From: Nocardioides thalensis
GTDB taxonomy: Bacteria > Actinomycetota > Actinomycetes > Propionibacteriales > Nocardioidaceae
Reading direction: 5' to 3'
Assembly (NCBI RefSeq): GCF_013410655.1
Contig: NZ_JACCFP010000001.1
Location: 310,001-374,000 of the forward strand
Length of the DNA stretch: 64,000 bases
In this document: positions 940-16,029 of the stretch, piece after piece
How the letters are laid out: each line of letters opens with the position of its first letter
How positions within the stretch are numbered: position 1 is the stretch's first letter
Position numbers and translations under genes: made by a program
The notes under the pieces: generated by a model
Seen by the model: the letters and a program-made list of their open reading frames with translations, nothing else
Databases searched by the model: none
What the model was told of the DNA's origin: nothing

Positions 940-2399
940 ATCCTGCTAAGTGCCGCGGCGGCCTCCGGGTCGCCGCGGCGCTAGCGACCATGGTGGCTGC
1001 TCTGGTCGCGTGCAATGGGCGAGCAACTCCGGGTGACCCCCCAACCGAGGCCGCGTCTGTTGGGCAGTCGCCCGACGTCCTCAGCGCCTCGCTCAACGGC
1101 GTACCGGAGCTTTGTGGAGAGCCGCCGAAGCCCTCTCGCCGGGGCAAGCCGGCCCCGCCAGAAGGGCTTCCGGCGAACCGCTATCTGTTTTGCGCCGAAG
1201 TCGTGGCAACCACGGCGGATGGCGGCGAGCACCGCTGGAACATTCAAATACTCACCAATGAGCCCAGCCCAGATGTGCGCGAGAAGCGACTCGTCTTTGT
1301 ACACGCAGGGGGACCTGGCCTTGCGTCGACCGGTCGACTGGCAGCGGTGTTGCCCACTCTTGACTACAGCCAATCGGTGGCCGTCAGTTGGGATGGATCA
1401 ACATCGTCTTCTGAGCCCGGTGCGTGCGGACCCGCCTCCGCGGCGTACGGCGTTGACCGCAGCGACTGGGAAACGACCGCCAGCCAAGTCGCGGAGGAGT
1501 GCGGAGCCCGAGACGGCGAGGCGCCCTGGCTGGCGTCGGCCGGTTCCGCAGCCGAGGAACTCGAAGCGACCAGAATCGCCCTTGGCAAGGACCAAGTCGA
1601 TCTCCTCACCTACTCCTACGGAACAGCTGTCGCGCAGGCATATCTCGCGTTATACCCCGAGCGCGTTAGCCGCGCCGTTCTAGACGGCCCCATTGTTCTG
1701 GAGACACCTTGGGACCAGCGCATCGCGGCGATGCGCCGAGCCACGTCCCGTGCCTGGAACGAGATGGTCAGACGGTGCCTCACGCGAACCTGCCCTGCGC
1801 AGACCCGCCAGTTGCTCCGCGAGTCCGCAGGATACGCGCAGGTACGCGCACGGCTGCTCGAAGATCCGGTTTCTGTCGGAAGCGGGCAGCAAGACCTGAC
1901 CCCGACCATCGTGGACCAAGCCACGCTGATGGGATTGCGAACGGTTTCGACCCGGAAGGGACTGGTGCAAGGAATTCGTGAGGCACTCGCAGGAGACGGG
2001 ACAGATCTGTGGCAGTACGGGACGCGGCAGTACTTCGGACTGGACCGAGCGGTTTACCTCGACGCTCTGTGCCATGACCTGCGACACCCTGGTTCGATTG
2101 AGGCCTTCGCCGTCGACGGCGACCCACTGACAGCGAGCTTCGCAACAGATCTCGCTCCATGTGCCCTAGCACCCTTCATCGAGTTTGATACGGCTTCGAA
2201 CTCTCGAGCGCGCGTATTGGTGATGGCCTCCGACTTGGACCCTCTGACGCCATGGGAGCTGGTGCAACACGGCACTTGGTCCGCGAACACCAAGCTCTGC
2301 CACACGCATACTCCGGGACACACAGGTGGTCTGTTTCGCGGCCCGCGCCTGGCGGCAAAACGCATGCTCAGCGGCGACGCGTTCCGATGCCCGCCCTAG
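885..2399 (+). CDS. Alpha/beta hydrolase, tripeptidyl aminopeptidase-like, predicted lipoprotein
   Basis: 504 residues. After an N-terminal stretch of about 28 residues comes a hydrophobic segment ending in LVAC (residues 40-43), a plausible lipobox. No other in-frame start precedes the segment, so ATG 885 is used although it lies inside the preceding gene. The family's GGPG-type oxyanion region appears as HAGGPG. The nucleophile elbow is SYG within LLTYSYGTA, and the C-terminal TAP-like domain supplies the acid (SDLDPLTP) and the histidine (HTPGHTG). Actinobacterial enzymes of this type cleave short peptides or ester/amide substrates outside the membrane. The substrate cannot be told from sequence. 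It is followed by a sigma factor gene about 130 bases downstream. Confidence 0.85.
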   Translation: MDHPARNVRQQQQLSGRLDPAKCRGGLRVAAALATMVAALVACNGRATPGDPPTEAASVGQSPDVLSASLNGVPELCGEPPKPSRRGKPAPPEGLPANRYLFCAEVVATTADGGEHRWNIQILTNEPSPDVREKRLVFVHAGGPGLASTGRLAAVLPTLDYSQSVAVSWDGSTSSSEPGACGPASAAYGVDRSDWETTASQVAEECGARDGEAPWLASAGSAAEELEATRIALGKDQVDLLTYSYGTAVAQAYLALYPERVSRAVLDGPIVLETPWDQRIAAMRRATSRAWNEMVRRCLTRTCPAQTRQLLRESAGYAQVRARLLEDPVSVGSGQQDLTPTIVDQATLMGLRTVSTRKGLVQGIREALAGDGTDLWQYGTRQYFGLDRAVYLDALCHDLRHPGSIEAFAVDGDPLTASFATDLAPCALAPFIEFDTASNSRARVLVMASDLDPLTPWELVQHGTWSANTKLCHTHTPGHTGGLFRGPRLAAKRMLSGDAFRCPP

Positions 2400-4319: not shown

Positions 4320-4531
4320 GCCAAGCGATGATCGGACCGCGGGCCCGGCACTGGTGTCTTGATCCGGCAGAGACGGGGGCGGCGCGCTACGTCCTAACCG
4401 TGATCCACGTGATCATGGCCCCGGACGATCTAGTGATCGAAGTGGCCTTCACCCTTAGCCCCGCGGATCCCACAGCCGACGGCCCCGCGAGGTGACGCAC
4501 CAGGGAACGGGTGTCCCGCACGGAGCCGACA

Positions 4532-4546
4532 TGACAAAAGTTGTCA
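4532..4546. promoter_or_regulatory. Palindrome TGACAA-N3-TTGTCA in the 4320-4628 intergenic gap
   Basis: The 309-base gap between the kelch gene and the phosphoesterase holds no convincing gene. It contains this perfect 6+3+6 palindrome, about 80 bases before the downstream start, and a TGATC-N5-GATCA palindrome at 4401-4415. Either could be a repressor site. The regulator is unknown. Confidence 0.35.
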
Positions 4547-4628
4547 AGCCGACGAGCCGCGGCAAGAAGACACTGGCGGCCGCGGCACTCACGTTACGGT
4601 GTCCTGACGCACGAACGCGGGGCGAGCC

Positions 4629-5660
4629 ATGAACCTTGACAGATTCAGCGTCGCAACTGTCAACCTGTACAACCTGAACCTTCCAGGCGTCGCTATGTAC
4701 CGGGACGTCGAGGGATGGAGTCCTGAGGAGTACGCCAAGAAGCTCGCGTGGTTGTCGCAACAACTGAAACGACTCGATGCAGACATCGTCGGGTTTCAGG
4801 AGCTCTGGCACCGCGACGCACTCGCTGAGGTAGTCGACGCGGCTGGGATGACACATTCCTATGACCTCCTCGCCGAGCCGGCGGACGGATCGGAGATCTG
4901 GTGCGGCGCTATCGTCCGGCGCGGTCTGATGGTTGGGGACCCGACCTGGACCGCCACATTCCCCGAGACGGTGAGGCTCGAATCGAGTGAGGACGCCAGC
5001 GACCCACAGGCGCCCGCGATTACGGTGCGGATCTCAGGATTCTCGCGTCCCGTGCTGTCGTTCGACGTCAGGTTGCGCGACGACGTCGACCTGACGCGCG
5101 TGTTCGTCGCTCACCTGAAGTCCAAACTCCCGACCGAGATCCGCCACGAGCCTTGGTACGAGGCGAATCCAGAACTCTTCAAACCACATGCAACGGCGCT
5201 GGGAGCCGGCATCGCTACGATTCGTCGGACAGCTGAGGCGGTCGCGCTGCGGAACATCCTGACGGACGTCATGAAGGACACGTCAACGCCGGTGCTAGTG
5301 CTCGGTGACCTCAATGACGGCCAGCACAGCAACACGATGAACATCCTGACCGCCCAGCCGCGGTATCTCCCGGGGTCCCATCTCGGTGGAGCGGACGTCG
5401 GGCTCTACACGGCGCAAACCCTCCAGGAGTACCGCGACACCCGGGACGTGTACTACACCCACGTGTTCCAGGATCTCCGTGAGTCCCTGGACCACATTCT
5501 GCTAAGCGAACAGTTCTACGATCATTCGACCGATCGTCTGTGGCTCTTCGACGGACTGGTGATCAACAACGACCACCTCAATTACGACGACCACAAGGCC
5601 TCCGGCACTGGTGATCACGGAATCGTCCAGGTTCACTTCAAGCACGCGCCGAGACGTTGA
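4629..5660 (+). CDS. Endonuclease/exonuclease/phosphatase family protein
   Basis: 343 residues, no signal peptide. The Mg-dependent EEP (DNase I-like) fold motifs are in order: an Asn in VNLYN near residue 14, the metal-binding Glu in VGFQELW (about residue 58), the catalytic GDLND (about residue 224), SLDHILL and the terminal GDHG. The family covers nucleases, inositol phosphatases and sphingomyelinase-like enzymes. Nothing here decides between them. It stands alone with about 300 bases of intergenic DNA upstream and a peptide/regulator pair downstream. Confidence 0.8.
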   Translation: MNLDRFSVATVNLYNLNLPGVAMYRDVEGWSPEEYAKKLAWLSQQLKRLDADIVGFQELWHRDALAEVVDAAGMTHSYDLLAEPADGSEIWCGAIVRRGLMVGDPTWTATFPETVRLESSEDASDPQAPAITVRISGFSRPVLSFDVRLRDDVDLTRVFVAHLKSKLPTEIRHEPWYEANPELFKPHATALGAGIATIRRTAEAVALRNILTDVMKDTSTPVLVLGDLNDGQHSNTMNILTAQPRYLPGSHLGGADVGLYTAQTLQEYRDTRDVYYTHVFQDLRESLDHILLSEQFYDHSTDRLWLFDGLVINNDHLNYDDHKASGTGDHGIVQVHFKHAPRR

Positions 5661-5836
5661 GGATGGAGCGCGAGTAGCCGACGTCTGGGTGTACGTACGC
5701 CAGGCGGTCGACGAGGCACCCGCAATGACCTTCACGGCGAGTCAGGCCCCGAGCCTGCGCGGCGGACCCCAGTGGAGAGCTTTCGCCGCTCTGGCACAAC
5801 TCGCTGACGCCAAGACGTGGTCATCACGCTGCGGCA

Positions 5837-5870
5837 GGGCGGTGGCGCGGAGTCGACGACGCCACCGCCC
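5837..5870 (-). terminator. GC-rich hairpin downstream of the small peptide gene
   Basis: Perfect 11-bp inverted repeat GGGCGGTGGCG / CGCCACCGCCC with a 12-base loop, starting 15 bases after the stop of the peptide gene on the minus strand. There is no T-run, as is common in high-GC actinobacteria. Its position supports the peptide gene being a discrete transcription unit. The rest of 5661-5836 shows nothing else. Confidence 0.7.
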
Positions 5871-5885
5871 TCGGGATAGCTCCGA

Positions 5886-6014
5886 TCAACAGCACCAGGA
5901 GCGATCGTTGGCCGAAGCGGACCCGAGGCTGGCCTCCGCCGTGAGCATCCCCCCGACGGTGAGAATTAGGGCCGCGAGCCCCGCTGCGATGCGTCGGACC
6001 GTCTGGTTCTTCAT
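5886..6014 (-). CDS. Small secreted peptide, candidate signalling pheromone precursor
   Basis: 42 residues, ATG at 6014, preceded by AAGGAG at 6021-6026 (spacing 6), the best ribosome binding site in the area. The peptide has a basic start (MKNQTVRR), a hydrophobic core (IAAGLAALILTVGGML) and a small-residue segment with AxA-type cleavage options (TAEA and GSASA). It ends in NDRSWCC. This is the layout of Phr/PapR-type export-processed signal peptides. It lies divergently beside the XRE-TPR regulator and is followed by a hairpin. The exact mature form and signalling role are inference. The two C-terminal cysteines could instead mark a disulfide or a modified peptide. Confidence 0.7.
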   Translation of the reverse strand: MKNQTVRRIAAGLAALILTVGGMLTAEASLGSASANDRSWCC

Positions 6015-6068
6015 CTATGTCTCCTTCGTCCGGAGCGCTCGACGAGTGCTCTCAGATGAAGTCAAGAA

Positions 6069-6221
6069 CCGGCAAGATCAGAATGGTCAGTACTTGCCAG
6101 AGATTGTGACACGTGAGGTCGGTGGGGAGACTGAGGCTGGTGACGTTCTTGCCGGTGAGCGCGTCGTGTGACTCGCGCCCGCTGTCCGGCGAGGCGAACC
6201 TCAGTTGCCGGATGCGGCAAG
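6069..6221. promoter_or_regulatory. Cluster of CTTGCCG half-sites in the divergent promoter region
   Basis: Five copies of one motif occur in 153 bases: CCGGCAAG at 6069-6076, CTTGCC at 6093-6098, CTTGCCGG at 6148-6155, and TTGCCG-GATG-CGGCAA at 6205-6220 (a perfect inverted repeat contributing two). The last ends 9 bases before the regulator's ATG. The distribution across the region shared by the peptide gene and the regulator suggests binding sites for that regulator. No clear -35/-10 pair was identified. Confidence 0.55.
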
Positions 6222-6229
6222 ATGTGTCC

Positions 6230-7618
6230 ATGGACGTCGACTTGGTGAATGCCCTTCTGGCGCTTGATTCCAAAGTTCTTGGCGAGCGGATCAAGGCAGC
6301 GCGGGCCGCCAAGGGACTCACTCAGCCGGATCTCGGCGGGTCCGATGCGTCAGTCGCCTACGTGTCCCGTATCGAAAAGGGCGAACGGCGTCCTGGTCCG
6401 GAGTTAGTCGATCTCTTTGCGCAGCGCCTCGGCGTGAACGTCGAACAACTCGTGCTCGGGGAAATCCCAGACCATGTTCGTGCGCTCGAGTTGCAGATCG
6501 ACTTGGCGGAGCTGGAGTTGGGCGGAGGTCAGGCCGATGTGTCTCACGAGCGGGTACTTGCGGTACTCGCAGACGTTTCGCTCGACCGGATCCCAGGGGG
6601 TCGCCTGAGGGCCCGCTACGTGTGCGCTGCAGCCGCAGAGGCGCTGGGGCTCCCGGAGGCCACTGACGAGTTCGCCTCGATCGTCGCAGAAGCAGAGCCA
6701 GGGCCGATCGCACTGAAGGCAGCGGTCGCTCTGAGCCGTGTATCCCGGGAACGGGGGGCACTGGACGAAGCTGTCTCTGCCGCGGAACGCGGGTTGGACA
6801 TCGCACGGAAAGCATCGCTAATAGACACGGAGCAGGCGGTCCGTCTAACCGTGACCTTGGCCGCTGCCCACTATGAGCGGGGGGACATCGATACCGCAGC
6901 CGCGGCCTGCGAAGAAGCGATCGAGCGCGCTGACAGACTCGACGCACCCGGCGCACGGGCGGCGGCGTACTGGAATACGAGCGTCATTGAGGCCGAGGCG
7001 GGCAATATCGAACGTGCCCTGCATCTGGCCAAGAAGGCGTTGAACCTCTTAGAGACCGCAGAGGGAACGCTGGACCTCGCGCGGCTGCGCACCCAGTTGA
7101 GCGCGATCATGCTGCGGGTTGATCCTCCGGATATCGACGACGCGCGCCGGCAACTCGAACAGGCCTCCAAGGAACTTGAGTGGAGTGGCGCCTCGCCTGC
7201 AGATCGCGCCCGAACCGACATCGTGCGCGCGCGGCTCTTATTCGTCAGCGGCGCACTCGTGGAAGCTCATGAGCTGGCGCAAGAAGCCGTCGGTCGCGTT
7301 GGGCCGGAACTGCCCCTGGCTCGCGGAGCCGGCTTGAGCCTGTTGGGGCAGATCGCCTGGAGTCTCGGCGACGACGACGGCGCCCGGCAGGCCTATCGCT
7401 CGGCGATCGCTGTACTCACGGGCTTCGGGAACGATCGCGAGGCCGCCCAGCTCTGGTTCGAGGTCGGGGCCCTCGCGGACGAGGCTGGGCTTCACGACGA
7501 AGCGAGGGATGCTTACAAACGGGCTGCCGCCTCCAGCGGGCTCGCTGTTCGAAACCCGATCGTACGAGGCGCTCGCCCGGTGCCGGCCAAGGCGTCGGGC
7601 GCTGGATCGTCAAGCTAA
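6230..7618 (+). CDS. XRE-family helix-turn-helix regulator with TPR repeats
   Basis: 462 residues from ATG 6230. An upstream in-frame start at 6113 would run through the operator cluster and adds no conserved sequence. The helix-turn-helix is at about residues 17-72 (LGERIKAARAAKGLTQPDLG, then YVSRIEKGERRPGPELVDLFAQRLGV). From about residue 110 to 445 the protein is built of helical tetratricopeptide-like repeats such as AAAYWNTSVIEAEAGNIERALHLAKKAL and ARQAYRSAIAVL. HTH plus TPR is the architecture of RRNPP peptide receptors (Rap, NprR, PlcR, PrgX). The divergent secreted-peptide gene makes a peptide-responsive role likely. The direct target is unknown. Nearby island genes are candidates. 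Confidence 0.85.
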   Translation: MDVDLVNALLALDSKVLGERIKAARAAKGLTQPDLGGSDASVAYVSRIEKGERRPGPELVDLFAQRLGVNVEQLVLGEIPDHVRALELQIDLAELELGGGQADVSHERVLAVLADVSLDRIPGGRLRARYVCAAAAEALGLPEATDEFASIVAEAEPGPIALKAAVALSRVSRERGALDEAVSAAERGLDIARKASLIDTEQAVRLTVTLAAAHYERGDIDTAAAACEEAIERADRLDAPGARAAAYWNTSVIEAEAGNIERALHLAKKALNLLETAEGTLDLARLRTQLSAIMLRVDPPDIDDARRQLEQASKELEWSGASPADRARTDIVRARLLFVSGALVEAHELAQEAVGRVGPELPLARGAGLSLLGQIAWSLGDDDGARQAYRSAIAVLTGFGNDREAAQLWFEVGALADEAGLHDEARDAYKRAAASSGLAVRNPIVRGARPVPAKASGAGSSS

Positions 7619-7786
7619 ACCCCGCGGGACACGTCAATAGGGCGATCAACGCCGCCGAACTAAGGGGCGACCCCGGTCGTCGACCAGGTGGCGACTGGAC
7701 CCTTGTGGATGGCAAGTTTCGTCAACTACGATGACGACATCAGTGGACTGCGAGAGCAATCCGGCCGCCCTGCGAAAGGTGGAGGC

Positions 7787-8032
7787 ATGGCACAGGAGGC
7801 GTCGAGAGACGTTGTACCGAACCCTGACGGGGGCTGGGACGTTCGCGCGCCAGGGGCCTCCCGCGCCAGCAGTCACCACGACACACAGGCGGAGGCTATT
7901 GCACGGGGCCGCGAGATCGTCCAGAACGCTGGCGGGGGAGAACTACGAATCCACGATCGTGACGGTCGAATCCGCGACAGCGACACGATCCCACCCGGGC
8001 ACGACCCGAACCCTCCGCGGGATCGGAAGTGA
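7787..8032 (+). CDS. DUF2188-family small protein
   Basis: 81 residues from ATG 7787, preceded by an AGGTGGAGG ribosome binding site. The longer in-frame start at 7688 has no such site and adds unconserved sequence. The core VVPNPDGGWDVRAPGASRASSHHDTQAEAI, then GGGELRIHDRDGRIRDSDT, is characteristic of DUF2188, a small family common in actinobacteria with no established function. It stands alone between the XRE-TPR gene and a membrane protein gene. Confidence 0.8.
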   Translation: MAQEASRDVVPNPDGGWDVRAPGASRASSHHDTQAEAIARGREIVQNAGGGELRIHDRDGRIRDSDTIPPGHDPNPPRDRK

Positions 8033-8965: not shown

Positions 8966-9224
8966 CGGCAAAGCCCCTCCCGTCGTGTGAGCCCCGAAGT
9001 TTGTCCATACACTCCGCGGCATCAGCTGGCGCTCCTCCGCCTGATAACCGCGGAGTCGATCGCGTCATGAGGCCTGGGGGCAATGCCAGCGGGGAGCCAA
9101 GTCACGCAACCGAACGCTAATCCGACCGCCTCGGAAAGCCCGCTCGTGGGCCAACCTCGACGAGCACAATATGTTCGGCTCGCCGGACCCTGCCAAGCGA
9201 ATATTCTCGAACACGGAGGTGGCA

Positions 9225-10361
9225 ATGACAGATAGCACACCAGACGGAGAGCTTGGAGTGGAACGAAGTTGCTTCGTCATTAGTCCAATCGGAAGTCGAC
9301 TGGCCCCGATCGGTACGCCAGCCCGGGCGTCATACGAACAAAATATTCAAGTATGGGAACGCGTGATAGAGCCAGCTTGCGCACATTTTGGCCTGACGCC
9401 CCTCCGCTCGGACAAGATCTCCGAACCAGGTGAGATTACCGAGCAGATTTTCACCTTGCTCAGGGATTCAGACGTCGTCATCGCTGATCTCACAGATGGA
9501 AACGCGAACGTGATGTACGAACTCGGTCTACGTCACACTCGCGACAAAATTACTGTGCAGATCGGCGAGTATCAACGCCTTCCTTTCGACGTCAATACGA
9601 TTCGCACGCTGCAGTTCACCCGTACCGAGGCGGGCTTTATTGACGTCCGCGAGTCACTCATCGAATCTTTGCGCGCTGCATTGGCTGGCCGTTCCACCCC
9701 GGTGACTGCCACACGGGTCTGGACCGAAGGCGCGGTCATCACAAGCGCGGAAATCTCTGAAGTCGCCGCCCGGTCGTCCTCCCCCGATGACGATGCTGGG
9801 CACGACGAGCCCGGTTTTATCGATATCTTGGCCGAGGGCGAAGAGTCGGTCACTTCATTTGGCGAGCGCCTCGACGAGATTACCAGCCGCATCGCCGACA
9901 TAGCTAACGTGATCGATGAGTCTACGGCGGCGATCCACGAGTCAGACCAGCGTCAAGGCGGGTTTGCGGGCCGGCTCACGGTCGCTCGGCAGACCAACGA
10001 GAACCTCAAGCCGCCGGCCGAGGAACTTCAAAAACTGGCTATTGAGTTTCGCAAGGACGTCTCCACTGCGGACGCCGCCCTGAACTACATGCTGGACAGA
10101 ATGACTGAGGATACAGACGAACGCGCAGAAGGTGCAGAGTTCCTGCAGGTGTTGGCCGATCTAGGCGTCGTTGTAGCGGAGTCCGAGTCCAGTACCGCCG
10201 AGTTTGCCCAACATGCGCGAGGATTGGCGAACATCTCGCGAGTGCTGAAGGACTCGTCTCGGACGATGACTACCGCGATGAATGACATCCTGTGGGGCAT
10301 GGGAACGATGAAGGCCTGGGCGGAGCGGGCGCGCCGACTATTGGACGACGGCCGGGCGTGA
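9225..10361 (+). CDS. Nucleoside 2-deoxyribosyltransferase/TIR-fold protein with C-terminal helical domain
   Basis: 378 residues from ATG 9225, preceded by GGAGG. Residues about 12-145 carry the marks of the deoxyribosyltransferase/TIR-like fold: CFVISPIGS, then DVVIADLTDGNANVMYELGLRH with the family's AD(L/I)T and N..YELG.RH residues. The remainder (about 210-378) is acidic, helical and probably coiled-coil (EEVTSF, ERLDEITSRIADIANVI). Proteins with this N-domain serve as NAD- or nucleotide-degrading effectors in several anti-phage systems, but also have other roles. Base composition at the 5' end is far lower in G+C (31/60 in 9241-9300) than the eastern part of the window. It sits directly before a restriction-modification pair. 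A defence role is inference. Confidence 0.7.
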   Translation: MTDSTPDGELGVERSCFVISPIGSRLAPIGTPARASYEQNIQVWERVIEPACAHFGLTPLRSDKISEPGEITEQIFTLLRDSDVVIADLTDGNANVMYELGLRHTRDKITVQIGEYQRLPFDVNTIRTLQFTRTEAGFIDVRESLIESLRAALAGRSTPVTATRVWTEGAVITSAEISEVAARSSSPDDDAGHDEPGFIDILAEGEESVTSFGERLDEITSRIADIANVIDESTAAIHESDQRQGGFAGRLTVARQTNENLKPPAEELQKLAIEFRKDVSTADAALNYMLDRMTEDTDERAEGAEFLQVLADLGVVVAESESSTAEFAQHARGLANISRVLKDSSRTMTTAMNDILWGMGTMKAWAERARRLLDDGRA

Positions 10362-10491
10362 GCGGTCAGTCCATCCGTCGCGGCATCGGCTTCTAGGGCA
10401 ACCGAGTCACCAACGCACCCCCGCGGCCCCATCTAACGTGGGGCGCGCGCACGTGACCGGCGGTTTGCCGAGTCGACCTCTTGTAGATCAA

Positions 10492-10512
10492 GGCGCCGGC
10501 TCCGCCGGCGCC
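10492..10512. terminator. Hairpin between the TIR-fold gene and the methyltransferase gene
   Basis: GGCGCCGGC-TCC-GCCGGCGCC, a perfect 9-bp stem with a 3-base loop, flanked by AA and gCCTT. It lies 130 bases past the stop of the upstream gene and 120 bases before the methyltransferase start, so it can separate the two transcripts. The rest of 10362-10632 shows nothing else. Confidence 0.55.
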
Positions 10513-10632
10513 GCCTTGCGGGCGGCGCTGAAGCGCCGTCCTCGGCGGCCGGTGCACTCTTCCGTTGCCTTTCTCCACAGTCCCGCCGCGCCCACCTCGG
10601 GATTGTCGTTGCCGTGCGCGAGGATGTTCGAC

Positions 10633-12132
10633 ATGCGTCGCGACCTTCTCGATCTGGCTGAGTGTCATCGCAGGGCGGCTCTCGCGCGCCTAGACGCCAA
10701 GGATCAGGCGGCTCTCGGCCAGTTCTTCACACCGATGCGCGCTGCCGCGTTGATTGCATCGCTGCCCCGACTGCCCGAGGTAGGAGCGTTGCGAATCTTG
10801 GACCCGGGTGCCGGGTCGGGCATGCTTTCGGCGGCGATCGTCGCGCGAGTCCTCTCGGAAACGCCTGACGTCTCTGTTCACATCGTTGCAGTCGAAGCCG
10901 ACTTAGTGGTGCTGCCGCATCTGATCGAGACCCTGGAGGCCTGCAAGGCCGCCGGCCATGGTCGGGTGACCTATGAAGTTGTCGAGGCCGACTACATACA
11001 GGCATCAACTGGGCTCGATGCCGACGACCGGCTCGCCGGCTTCGACCTATGTATCCAGAACCCCCCGTATGCGAAGTTGGCTGCAAAGTCGCCGGCGCGC
11101 GCCGCGATCAAGGCCGCCGGCGTTGACTCCCCGAACCTGTACGCCGCCTTCTTGGCGCTCGCCACCGCGGCGCTGGCAGAGGGCGGGCAGCTGGTGGCGA
11201 TCACCCCGCGCTCGTTCGCGAACGGCCCCTACTTCGGAGCCTTCCGCCGGTACCTGCTCGACCAAGTGTCCCTAGACCGGGTTCACGTCTTCGAGTCGCG
11301 GTCGACCGTGTTCGCAGACACGGGGGTGTTGCAGGAGAACGTGATCTTCTCCGCCACCAAGCACGGCTCGCGCGAACGGGTGATGTTGTCCGTCAGCAAC
11401 GACCACCACGACGACGCCGCTCACCGCACGGTCCCGTACTCCGACGTCGTCAACCCAGAGGACGAACATCGGTTCATTCGGATCGCGGCGAACGACGCCG
11501 ACATTGCCATCGCCGAATTGATGCTCACTCTGCCCTGCACTCTTGCCGATCTCGGGGTAAAGGTTTCCACCGGCCCCGTCGTCGACTTCCGCAGCCGCCG
11601 TTGCCTGCACACCGAGGCTGTCGACGGCGGACTGCCGCTGATCTATCCCGGAAACGTCCGAGGCGGCCGGATCGAGTGGCCGCGAGAAATCCGCAAAGCG
11701 CAGTGGTATCTACCCGTCGACGCCGCGGATGAGAGGTGGCTGGTCCCGGAAGGTTGGTACACGGTCATCAAGCGGTTCTCTGCGAAGGAAGAGCGTCGCC
11801 GCATCGTCGCCGCCGTCTGGTCACCCGACGTGAAGCCGGGACCGTTGGCCTTGGAGAACCACCTCAACTATCTCCATCTGGGCGGGGTCGGGCTTGATCG
11901 AGAGCTCGCCTACGGGTTGTCGCTGTGGCTCAACTCGAGCTTGGTCGACCAGTTCTTCCGTACGTTCTCCGGACATACCCAAGTCAACGCGACAGACTTG
12001 CGGACCATGAGGTTCCCCCGCATCGACAGCCTGCGGGCTCTCGGCGCCGCCGGTCCGGATCACCTGCCCGAGCAGAACGAGATCGACGCGCTCGTCGATG
12101 CGGCGCTGACTGCCGCGGCCGCCGCCGCGTGA
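10633..12132 (+). CDS. DNA adenine-N6 methyltransferase, Eco57I/BsuBI-PstI type
   Basis: 499 residues from ATG 10633, chosen because GAGG lies 9 bases upstream and the family's start region (DLAECHRRAALARLDAKDQAALGQFFTP) follows at once. The longer frame to 10438 runs through the hairpin. S-adenosylmethionine motif I is LDPGAGSGMLSAAI and catalytic motif IV is IQNPPYAKL (N/D-PP-Y/F of N6-adenine enzymes). The C-terminal half is a target-recognition domain. The stop overlaps the next gene's GTG by GTGA, coupling it to the cognate endonuclease. It protects host DNA from that enzyme. Confidence 0.92.
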   Translation: MRRDLLDLAECHRRAALARLDAKDQAALGQFFTPMRAAALIASLPRLPEVGALRILDPGAGSGMLSAAIVARVLSETPDVSVHIVAVEADLVVLPHLIETLEACKAAGHGRVTYEVVEADYIQASTGLDADDRLAGFDLCIQNPPYAKLAAKSPARAAIKAAGVDSPNLYAAFLALATAALAEGGQLVAITPRSFANGPYFGAFRRYLLDQVSLDRVHVFESRSTVFADTGVLQENVIFSATKHGSRERVMLSVSNDHHDDAAHRTVPYSDVVNPEDEHRFIRIAANDADIAIAELMLTLPCTLADLGVKVSTGPVVDFRSRRCLHTEAVDGGLPLIYPGNVRGGRIEWPREIRKAQWYLPVDAADERWLVPEGWYTVIKRFSAKEERRRIVAAVWSPDVKPGPLALENHLNYLHLGGVGLDRELAYGLSLWLNSSLVDQFFRTFSGHTQVNATDLRTMRFPRIDSLRALGAAGPDHLPEQNEIDALVDAALTAAAAAA

Positions 12133-13064
12133 TCTCGACCAACGAGAGCCAGCAGATCCTTCGCGATCTGGGCTTCGACGACGAGCAGTGCAATGAGCGA
12201 TCAGCGCGTGTCCTGCTAGCACTCCTGCGCCTTGCGCCGCGCGACAGCTGGTCCGACGCGACCAATCCGATGCTTGGTACGCGGGCGATCATGGACTGGA
12301 TTCGGGATGAGCACGGTGTGGAGTACGCCGCGAACACTCGCGAGACCATCCGCCGGTTCACCCTCCACCATTTCGCCGATGCGCTGCTTGTGGTGCAGAA
12401 CGCTGACAACCCGGACCGACCGGTCAACTCGCCGAAATCGAACTACCAGATCACGAGCGAGGCGCTGGCTGTCATCCAGGCGTATGGCACTCCGGAGTAC
12501 AGGGATCTGTTGGCCGCGTACCTGCAGGCAGCGCCGGGCCTCAAAGAGCGGTACGCCGCTGCACGCGCGTTGAATCGGATTCCGGTCACTCTCCCGGATG
12601 GGAAACCATTCACCCTGTCACCGGGTGGCCAGAATGTACTCATCAAGCAGATGCTCGAAGAGTTCTGTCCTCAGTTCACCCCGGGCGGTGAGGTGCTCTA
12701 CGTCGGCGATGCCGATGACAAGTGGGCCCACTTTGAGCAGCAGCGGCTCGGGGCCCTGGGGGTCACGGTCAACCAGCACGGAAAGATGCCCGACCTAGTC
12801 GTTTACCTACCCGACCGCGACTGGCTGGTTCTCATGGAAGCAGCCTCGTCCCACGGGCCCGTCGATTCCAAGCGCCATGGAGAGCTCGCTGTCCTGTTCG
12901 AGGATGCAACGCCCGGCCTCGTCTACATCTCCTGCTTCCCAGACCGCCGCGAGATGCGCAAGTACCTCCACGTAATCGCGTGGGAGACCGACGTCTGGTG
13001 CGCCGAGGATCCCACCCACTTGATCCACTTCAACGGGGAACGCTTCCTCGGTCCCTACGACTAG
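12129..13064 (+). CDS. Type II restriction endonuclease, BsuBI/PstI family
   Basis: 311 residues, close to the family's usual length of about 315. The start is GTG 12129, overlapping the methyltransferase stop. The C-terminal catalytic domain has the family pattern VLYVGDADDKWAHFE, MPDLVVYLPDRDWLVLMEAA and SSHGPVDSKRH, with the PD...E.A.SHGP residues intact. The N-terminal half (RDEHGVEYAANTRETIRRFTLHHF, VNSPKSNYQI) matches the DNA-binding part of these enzymes. PstI and BsuBI cut CTGCAG. Whether this homologue shares that site cannot be told from sequence. The gene looks complete and probably active. Confidence 0.92.
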   Translation: MISTNESQQILRDLGFDDEQCNERSARVLLALLRLAPRDSWSDATNPMLGTRAIMDWIRDEHGVEYAANTRETIRRFTLHHFADALLVVQNADNPDRPVNSPKSNYQITSEALAVIQAYGTPEYRDLLAAYLQAAPGLKERYAAARALNRIPVTLPDGKPFTLSPGGQNVLIKQMLEEFCPQFTPGGEVLYVGDADDKWAHFEQQRLGALGVTVNQHGKMPDLVVYLPDRDWLVLMEAASSHGPVDSKRHGELAVLFEDATPGLVYISCFPDRREMRKYLHVIAWETDVWCAEDPTHLIHFNGERFLGPYD

Positions 13065-15898: not shown

Positions 15899-15978
15899 TG
15901 CAGGTCACAGCCTGCCGTCCGACGGACTGTAAATCAGCCGGCATTGCCTACAGTGGTTCGAATCCACTACCTGCCACC
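15899..15978 (+). other. Degenerate tRNA-Tyr-like sequence, probable island attachment site
   Basis: The 3' two-thirds matches a tRNA-Tyr: anticodon loop CTGTAAA (GTA anticodon), long variable region, perfect T-arm (AGTGG-TTCGAAT-CCACT) and 3' acceptor strand ACCTGCC followed by ACC. The 5' side is degraded. TGCAGGT pairs with ACCTGCC at only 6 of 7 positions. The D-arm region is about 4 bases short compared with a usual tRNA-Tyr, and the anticodon stem has two mismatches. A 3' tRNA copy beside accessory genes is the usual mark of integration into a tRNA gene. The intact tRNA and integrase would lie left of the window. Confidence 0.6.
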
Positions 15979-15985
15979 GGCGCCG

Positions 15986-16029
15986 GAAACGGCCCGTGAC
16001 CTGCGGAAACGTGGGGAACGGGCCGTTTC
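15986..16029. terminator. Strong hairpin after the tRNA-like sequence
   Basis: Perfect 12-bp inverted repeat GAAACGGCCCGT / ACGGGCCGTTTC with a 20-base loop, 8 bases past the tRNA-like 3' end. This is the position of a tRNA-gene terminator and suggests that the DNA to the right is the original chromosomal flank. Confidence 0.75.

Follow-up and report, generated by a model that had tools for sequence, protein, structure and literature searches.

Does this locus encode a peptide signal together with its receptor? In the window analysed here (the whole 64-kb stretch G000:C1:310001-374000 of the host genome G000, complete, 4.57 Mb), a short ORF with an export-like leader lies beside the gene of an XRE-TPR regulator, and an earlier note on this DNA had proposed the two as a candidate pheromone/receptor pair. 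In the available text of a survey of RRNPP systems, which covers Firmicutes and viruses (PMC10075063), such systems are recognized by a propeptide of 10-100 aa, a Sec signal, a receptor of ∼250-500 aa, TPRs and direct neighbour genes; actinobacterial signals are described there as typically small molecules. Four of these five features were found here (propeptide of 42 aa, receptor of 462 aa, TPRs, adjacency), and for the fifth, a Sec signal by SignalP, the leader fits by rule of thumb. The pair is read here, at a probability of roughly 0.75, as an autoregulated RRNPP-like pheromone whose terminus is almost always Cys-Cys, together with its cytoplasmic receptor.

The peptide gene and the regulator gene

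The peptide ORF (5886-6014, minus strand) translates to MKNQTVRRIAAGLAALILTVGGMLTAEASLGSASANDRSWCC and is preceded by a strong Shine-Dalgarno sequence (GAAGGAGA), which confirms the 42-residue product and ribosome binding site described earlier. Its leader has a charged n-region, a hydrophobic core and A-S-A before N, and was export-signal-like by a rule-based score, as the earlier note had also claimed; a hydropathy/charge rule and the AXA motif, both rules of thumb, fit a Sec signal. Cleavage is likely at SASA/NDRSWCC, and the C-terminus is SWCC. No family was matched in a Pfam scan of the peptide. Among the 32 signal-like small ORFs of the window, this is the only one with CC within the last four residues. 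The peptide is under purifying selection: the non-synonymous/synonymous ratio among similar family members was ∼0.2-0.3, a rough value because the compared peptide pairs are not independent, and most single-base differences between similar peptides, scaled by the number of sites, leave the residue unchanged (the ratio is ∼0.32 for the leader and 0.22 for positions −9 to −4).

The hairpin that follows the peptide gene (arms 5836-5847 and 5860-5871) has a perfect stem, as claimed, of 12 bp rather than 11 bp. It reaches 13 bp in the fold and has no U-tract. The energy was −36.7 kcal/mol (z −2.3), and 4 of 200 shuffles were equally good.

The two genes are divergent in the window and 215 nt apart. 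The mechanical ORF of the regulator starts at GTG 6113, and homologues align from about ATG 6230. An HTH (∼residues 14-76) is followed by helical repeats (∼80-436), and Pfam matches were to the XRE domain (HTH_31, HTH_3) and to TPRs (TPR_MalT 1.2e-15, TPR_12 7.1e-14). The AlphaFold2 model is an all-helical HTH-TPR superhelix (pLDDT 93.8). No match above cut-off was obtained in an NCBIfam scan of the regulator and nine peptides. In a PDB profile search the best natural protein was PlcR (E 7.6e-13, residues 14-239). HTH and TPR domains are both common, and similar scores are obtained with TPR folds of other proteins; the regulator may share descent with known RRNPP receptors. Fold alignment with Rap and NprR gave Z 24-25; unrelated TPR proteins tied with the same Z, and therefore the fold does not single out RRNPP proteins. 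The HTH-TPR protein of RRNPP architecture described in the earlier note thus stands as an XRE-HTH plus TPR protein by Pfam and model, with a fold that is not RRNPP-specific.

Table 1. Features of the window and of the element that carries the pair (window positions; operator-like repeats with motif scores)
Feature	Position	Strand	Details
Candidate pheromone precursor gene	5886..6014	minus	42 codons, 42 aa; Sec-type leader
Terminator-like hairpin of peptide gene	5836..5871	minus	12-bp perfect stem
XRE-TPR regulator, proposed cytoplasmic peptide receptor	6230..7618	plus	ATG 6230, 462 aa
Operator-like repeat TTGCC-N5-TTGAC, 42-68 nt before peptide start	6056..6082	minus	15.1; 12.8 leave-clade-out
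Second operator-like repeat, facing regulator gene	6077..6103	plus	13.9; 13.7 leave-clade-out
Operator-like repeat upstream of EEP-family hydrolase gene	4524..4550	plus	19.4; 20.1 leave-clade-out
Endonuclease/exonuclease/phosphatase-family (EEP) protein, possible target	4629..5660	plus	PF03372 6.1e-11; repeat upstream
Operator-like repeat, 56-82 nt before probable DUF2188 start (7788)	7706..7732	minus	18.6; 17.9 leave-clade-out
DUF2188 protein, possible target	7788..8032	plus	PF09954 2.6e-26; probable ATG 7788 with GGTGGAGG
Weaker operator-like repeat inside 885-2399 hydrolase ORF	1343..1369	plus	13.9; 13.3 leave-clade-out
Right attachment repeat, right border of element	15925..16000	plus	73/76 identical to G000:283057-283132
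AICE-like (pSAM2-like) element in tRNA-Tyr	-26943 to 16000 (G000:283057-326000)		42.9 kb

Conservation of the pair in the family

Regulator homologues were collected at E ≤ 1e-15 from 100 of the 294 genomes of the family (138 places), and four Nocardioides records and one Marmoricola record were also obtained. The first 119 of the 138 places and the five Nocardioides/Marmoricola loci gave 111 non-nested loci. The remaining 19, weaker places gave 15 further stretches, for a total of 126 loci, which include closely related species and some paralogues.

The 111 loci contained 264 signal-like small ORFs, of which 104 had a Cys-Cys end; the next commonest ending was found 6 times. At least one signal-like ORF ending in Cys-Cys was present at 91 of the 111 loci, and at three more the Cys-Cys lies one residue from the end (L037 ..LCCR, L074 ..WCCL, L110 ..WCCG). 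Five of the 15 further stretches had an ORF ending in Cys-Cys and six had one with R, RR, K or H after the Cys-Cys (L260, L261, L264, L267, L268, L269). In total, 96 of the 126 regulator loci have the exact Cys-Cys end and 9 have Cys-Cys within the last four residues (105 loci), and at 21 no Cys-Cys ORF was found. The earlier note had named lack of conservation of the small ORF as the outcome that would speak against a pair; the opposite was observed, and the Cys-Cys end of the small ORFs beside homologous regulators is near-invariant. The control consisted of twenty 20-kb stretches at round coordinates, hand-picked from genomes possessing the regulator, and in these 400 kb none of 95 signal-like small ORFs had CC in the last four residues.

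The reverse search was performed with a profile of 47 peptides against the 294 genomes. At E 0.05 matches were found in 289 genomes and were largely leader-only. Among the matches listed that reach the C-terminus (model position 42), 84 of 87 had a regulator no more than 4.5 kb away; the remaining three were from one genome (G262) in which the regulator match stops at a contig end. Met1 and the two cysteines are the only invariant residues of the 47 aligned peptides, all of which were chosen to end in CC, and Trp is at position −3 in 70 of 119 distinct CC-ended peptides. The CC-ended ORFs listed at regulator loci are 37-75 aa long, and at one locus (L085) the peptide is 1.6 kb from the regulator. 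The divergent arrangement noted earlier holds for the window and is the exception elsewhere, 78 of the 83 pairs placed on a tree being convergent.

The six precursors with basic residue(s) or His after the Cys-Cys show that not every precursor terminates in Cys-Cys itself. Here, as at two loci outside the family (L196, L197), the extra residues could possibly be removed in a second trimming step.

Tandem peptide genes (2-3 copies) were observed at nine loci (L048, L051, L055, L056, L067, L084, L091, L092, L104), and the copies belonging to one receptor have the same or nearly the same tail. Tandem regulator arrays were observed at L133, L134, L135, L117 and L259, as if receptors had duplicated, and some of these matches are without the HTH part.

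ORFs of at least 90 aa in the flanks of the 111 loci were clustered. The largest neighbour cluster covered 27 of the 111 loci and no target gene was common to all; synteny or a wrong reading frame may account for many members of these clusters. With no cluster above this size, no single maturation or export gene of 90 aa or more in the flanks travels along with the pair.

Distribution outside the family

A 71-row regulator alignment was searched in genomes of the class at a threshold of 1e-30. Matches were found in 96 of 394 genomes, and 87 of these genomes do not belong to the family; within the order, 7 genomes from a different family matched as well. The 42 outside-family loci examined represent 40 distinct loci (L185 and L187 repeat L170 and L168). 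A CC-ended signal-like ORF was present at 22, a near-terminal Cys-Cys at 2, and 16 were without; the resulting 24/40 is not a prevalence, because 38 genomes were chosen from the best matches and by hand. In the small genomes of L196 and L197 (family f29) WCC lies 2 and 5 residues from the end. The loci without a signal-like CC ORF were L167, L168, L169, L170, L186, L189, L191, L192, L195 and L198-L204, of which L167 and L189 are truncated where their contigs stop; for the three f22 regulators (L198-L200) the ligands may be of another kind. The paired peptide of Nonomuraea gerenzanensis ends in ..TGDAGCC, and on a plasmid of Streptomyces sp. ADI95-16 an annotated hypothetical protein beside the regulator (WP_123083198.1) ends in ..DIPLCC.

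Viral contigs were searched with back-translated patterns of the regulator alignment and no relative was found. Among phages, one unannotated faecal clone with a partial regulator was found; no short ORF with CC near its end was present in the stretch of it that was searched.

Operator-like repeats

A motif, CTTGMC-N4-TTTGMC (core TTGMC-N5-TTGMC), was shared by the 200 nt preceding 120 peptide genes. At scores >13, 149 matches were found in 600 kb of regulator loci and none in the 400 kb control. Peptide genes are preceded by 93 of them and regulator genes by 39, while 1 falls within a regulator gene and 16 lie elsewhere; the 93 are partly so by construction, because the PWM was trained on peptide-upstream regions, and the regulator-upstream ones are not. 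In 19 wider loci (338 kb) there were 35 matches, mostly at peptide or regulator genes, and 4 of the 19 loci had none.

For a leave-clade-out PWM the window's own clade was dropped from training and 98 kb around the pair were scanned. Scores >11 were obtained only at window positions −251, 1343, 4524/4528, 6056, 6077 and 7706, all within 8 kb; the 400 kb control gave 3 matches >11 and none >13. The repeat at −251 precedes a secreted-protein ORF (about −83 to 939), and the one at 1343 may be a chance match. Judged from the repeats before neighbouring genes, the regulon of the system on this element is probably small and local. That the regulator binds the repeats, and in which direction it would then regulate, we infer from sequence.

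Exact TTGMCNNNNNTTGMC sites numbered 5 in the host genome, as did those of a reversed control pattern. Four of the 5 lay within 11.4 kb around the pair, and the site at G000:306375 is inside a VirB4-like ORF and not among the PWM matches. The operator reading is based on the PWM result rather than on this exact-pattern search.

The integrative element

The earlier note placed the pair on a probable integrated island, and an AICE-like element with attachment repeats was found in a tRNA-Tyr gene (Table 1). Window positions 15925-16000 repeat the 3′ end of the intact tRNA-Tyr at G000:283027-283110. The GC content of the element is 65.5%, against 70.8% and 70.6% in the flanks. AICEs such as pSAM2 carry an integrase by a tRNA, attachment repeats, a Rep protein and an FtsK/TraB-type translocase. 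The element has an integrase beside the tRNA (PF00589 5e-6, 26.8 bits, just under the 27.1 cut-off), a Rep protein (RepSA, PF20199 1.2e-87) and an FtsK/TraB-type translocase (PF01580 5.6e-10). It also encodes a VirB4-like ATPase and an M23 peptidase, and by its predicted gene content is an AICE with extra transfer-like genes. The differences from a pSAM2-type AICE are the peptide-receptor pair, a BsuBI/PstI-type restriction system and the VirB4-like ATPase.

Other genes were observed on the element. The ORF at G000:290425 is Nudix hydrolase-like by eye; Pif of pSAM2 is a Nudix protein. A Type II restriction-modification pair (window 10438-13064) comprises an Eco57I-type methylase and a BsuBI/PstI-type endonuclease and is adjoined by a TIR-effector match (window 9171-10361; PADLOC, 1.2e-9). 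A predicted secreted protein of 2392 aa (G000:291693-298871) has DUF6443 and a sub-cut-off SpvB match.

The second pair of the host is chromosomal (G000:2164819, L126) and convergent, with the peptide tail ..ARPIWCC. When 15 wider regulator loci were compared, the regulator alone resembled genes of the window's element. The same was true of two of the closest regulators (G279, G226), which lie between tRNA genes, neighbours compatible with older mobility. The element may have captured a chromosomal system.

Co-variation of regulator and peptide

Co-variation was assessed for 83 pairs, or 73 after dropping TPR domains >90% identical. Distances of the four residues before Cys-Cys followed TPR distances with r 0.56. 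The partial correlation given the HTH was 0.45, a value reached in 0 of 2000 permutations; that of tail with HTH given the TPR domain was −0.12, the HTH being shorter and noisier than the TPR part in this comparison. The peptide leader also tracked the TPR domain (r 0.52; partial on HTH 0.20, not reached in any of 2000 permutations), and shared ancestry therefore accounts for some of the co-variation.

When the regulator was divided into blocks of similar size and each block was judged given all the others, tail partials were highest at residues 151-372 (0.18-0.20), followed by 373-446 (0.08), the HTH (−0.05) and 77-150 (−0.21); leader partials were −0.12 to 0.18 without the focus on 151-372 seen for the tail. 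Given overall distance, the top 18-residue windows were 203-220 (0.29) and 239-256 (0.28), which in the model are two adjacent helices (201-217 and 240-256) in a region that includes the nearly invariant Tyr247-Trp248-Asn249. Receptor position 215, which ranked first among the 445 columns compared, holds an aromatic residue in 50 of the 56 pairs whose peptide has Trp at −3 and in 2 of 27 others. On the tree the peptide state changed ∼9 times and the state at position 215 ∼7 times. The region around position 215 may form a pocket for Trp(−3). The receptor of the second host pair (L126) has Gly at position 215 and is an exception to the aromatic rule.

The conserved pairing, and the co-variation of the C-terminal residues with the TPR domain, support the pheromone/receptor pair first proposed from the window. 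The same results bear on three other explanations. The peptide could be an effector (antimicrobial, wall-active or RiPP-type), with the XRE-TPR protein as a dedicated regulator that senses something else. The repeats before peptide genes suggest regulation without showing sensing, the tandem peptide copies would also raise dose, and TPR proteins serve RiPP systems too (the regulator has a weak FxSxx_TPR match, 8.7e-7, far under its cut-off). Against an effector, variation just ahead of the Cys-Cys goes with the TPR domain rather more than with the HTH, the neighbour clusters are limited as described above and the exported part is often <15 residues (by eye); we regard this explanation as unlikely.

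Still less probable is a redox or metal sensor in which, outside the cell, Cys-Cys would bind metal or form a vicinal disulfide, a state that the regulator would read. Such a role would agree with Cys-Cys being, besides Met1, the sole invariant feature of the aligned peptides (selected for the CC end), but receptor variation tracks the variable residues before Cys-Cys, as in pherotypes. A toxin-antitoxin-like pair, with a small membrane peptide toxin under an XRE antitoxin, is suggested by a short hydrophobic peptide adjoining an XRE protein and by the mobile location of the window's copy, and is highly improbable given the AXA-type cleavage motif, the soluble tail with its conserved end, the tandem peptide genes, the large TPR domain co-varying with the tail, and the mostly convergent layout with separate promoters.

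Comparison with known systems

PlcR-PapR of the Bacillus cereus group resembles the window pair in having a receptor with an XRE-HTH and TPRs next to a short precursor with an export-like leader; PapR is exported by Sec and its active part is at the C-terminus, as is proposed here. The differences are the phylum, the receptor length (∼450-460 aa here, 293 in the PlcR entry), the Cys-Cys end, the mostly convergent genes and the repeat, which is TTGMC-N5-TTGMC here and the PlcR box, another sequence, there. For NprR-NprX and Rap-Phr, the TPR superhelix (∼80-439) aligns over 342-346 residues in the best rows, with ∼9-11% identity. NprR shares the HTH and long TPR array with the window regulator, for which a phosphatase role is not known. 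Rap-Phr on ICEBs1 is a precedent for such a system on a mobile element. To our knowledge, described RRNPP members are not known to end in Cys-Cys, to be convergent by default or to occur in this phylum. Tandem copies of a secreted propeptide are common to the actinobacterial loci and to the RRNPPA propeptides of Bacillota, which are described as tandemly duplicated (PMC11343458); here, by comparison, each copy is a gene of its own, and the tails within an array are identical or almost so. No such peptide-receptor system in Actinomycetota was found in the literature searched, which was mainly open-access journal papers.

Proposed mechanism and significance

In the pheromone reading, the precursor would leave the cell through Sec, and signal peptidase would release its tail, which for the window's peptide is probably NDRSWCC and may be shortened again. 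This short peptide with its Cys-Cys end would be re-imported via an oligopeptide permease and bind in the TPR superhelix of the XRE regulator. Binding would alter the action of the regulator at TTGMC-N5-TTGMC operators, which are expected before the peptide gene, often before the regulator gene and, on the window's element, before neighbouring genes too. Opp-type proteins are encoded in the host genome (four SBP_bac_5 matches); we know of no importer or protease linked to the pair. Export, import, receptor binding and any role in the biology of the element are steps that we infer. The earlier note suggested that the system could sense island density in neighbouring cells; this stays a conjecture, given that the 15 wider regulator loci share only the regulator with the element and that the host chromosome carries a second pair.

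A more far-reaching possibility is put forward tentatively: an actinomycete pheromone class in which the Cys-Cys thiol or disulfide and the free carboxylate are recognized, an aromatic pocket receives the Trp, and AICEs sense neighbours that are carriers. If this were true, AICEs would have taken over the system as a means of recognizing cells nearby in which the element is already present. The cysteines could serve in recognition of the C-terminus, in a disulfide or in metal binding.

With a family of such linked genes in Nocardioides and other actinomycetes, peptide signalling in these soil bacteria would become directly testable. The pair offers a signature (signal peptide and terminal Cys-Cys beside an XRE-TPR gene), a candidate operator and specific receptor residues, and its recurrence suggests that peptides serve as signals in a group whose signalling is otherwise attributed mainly to small molecules.
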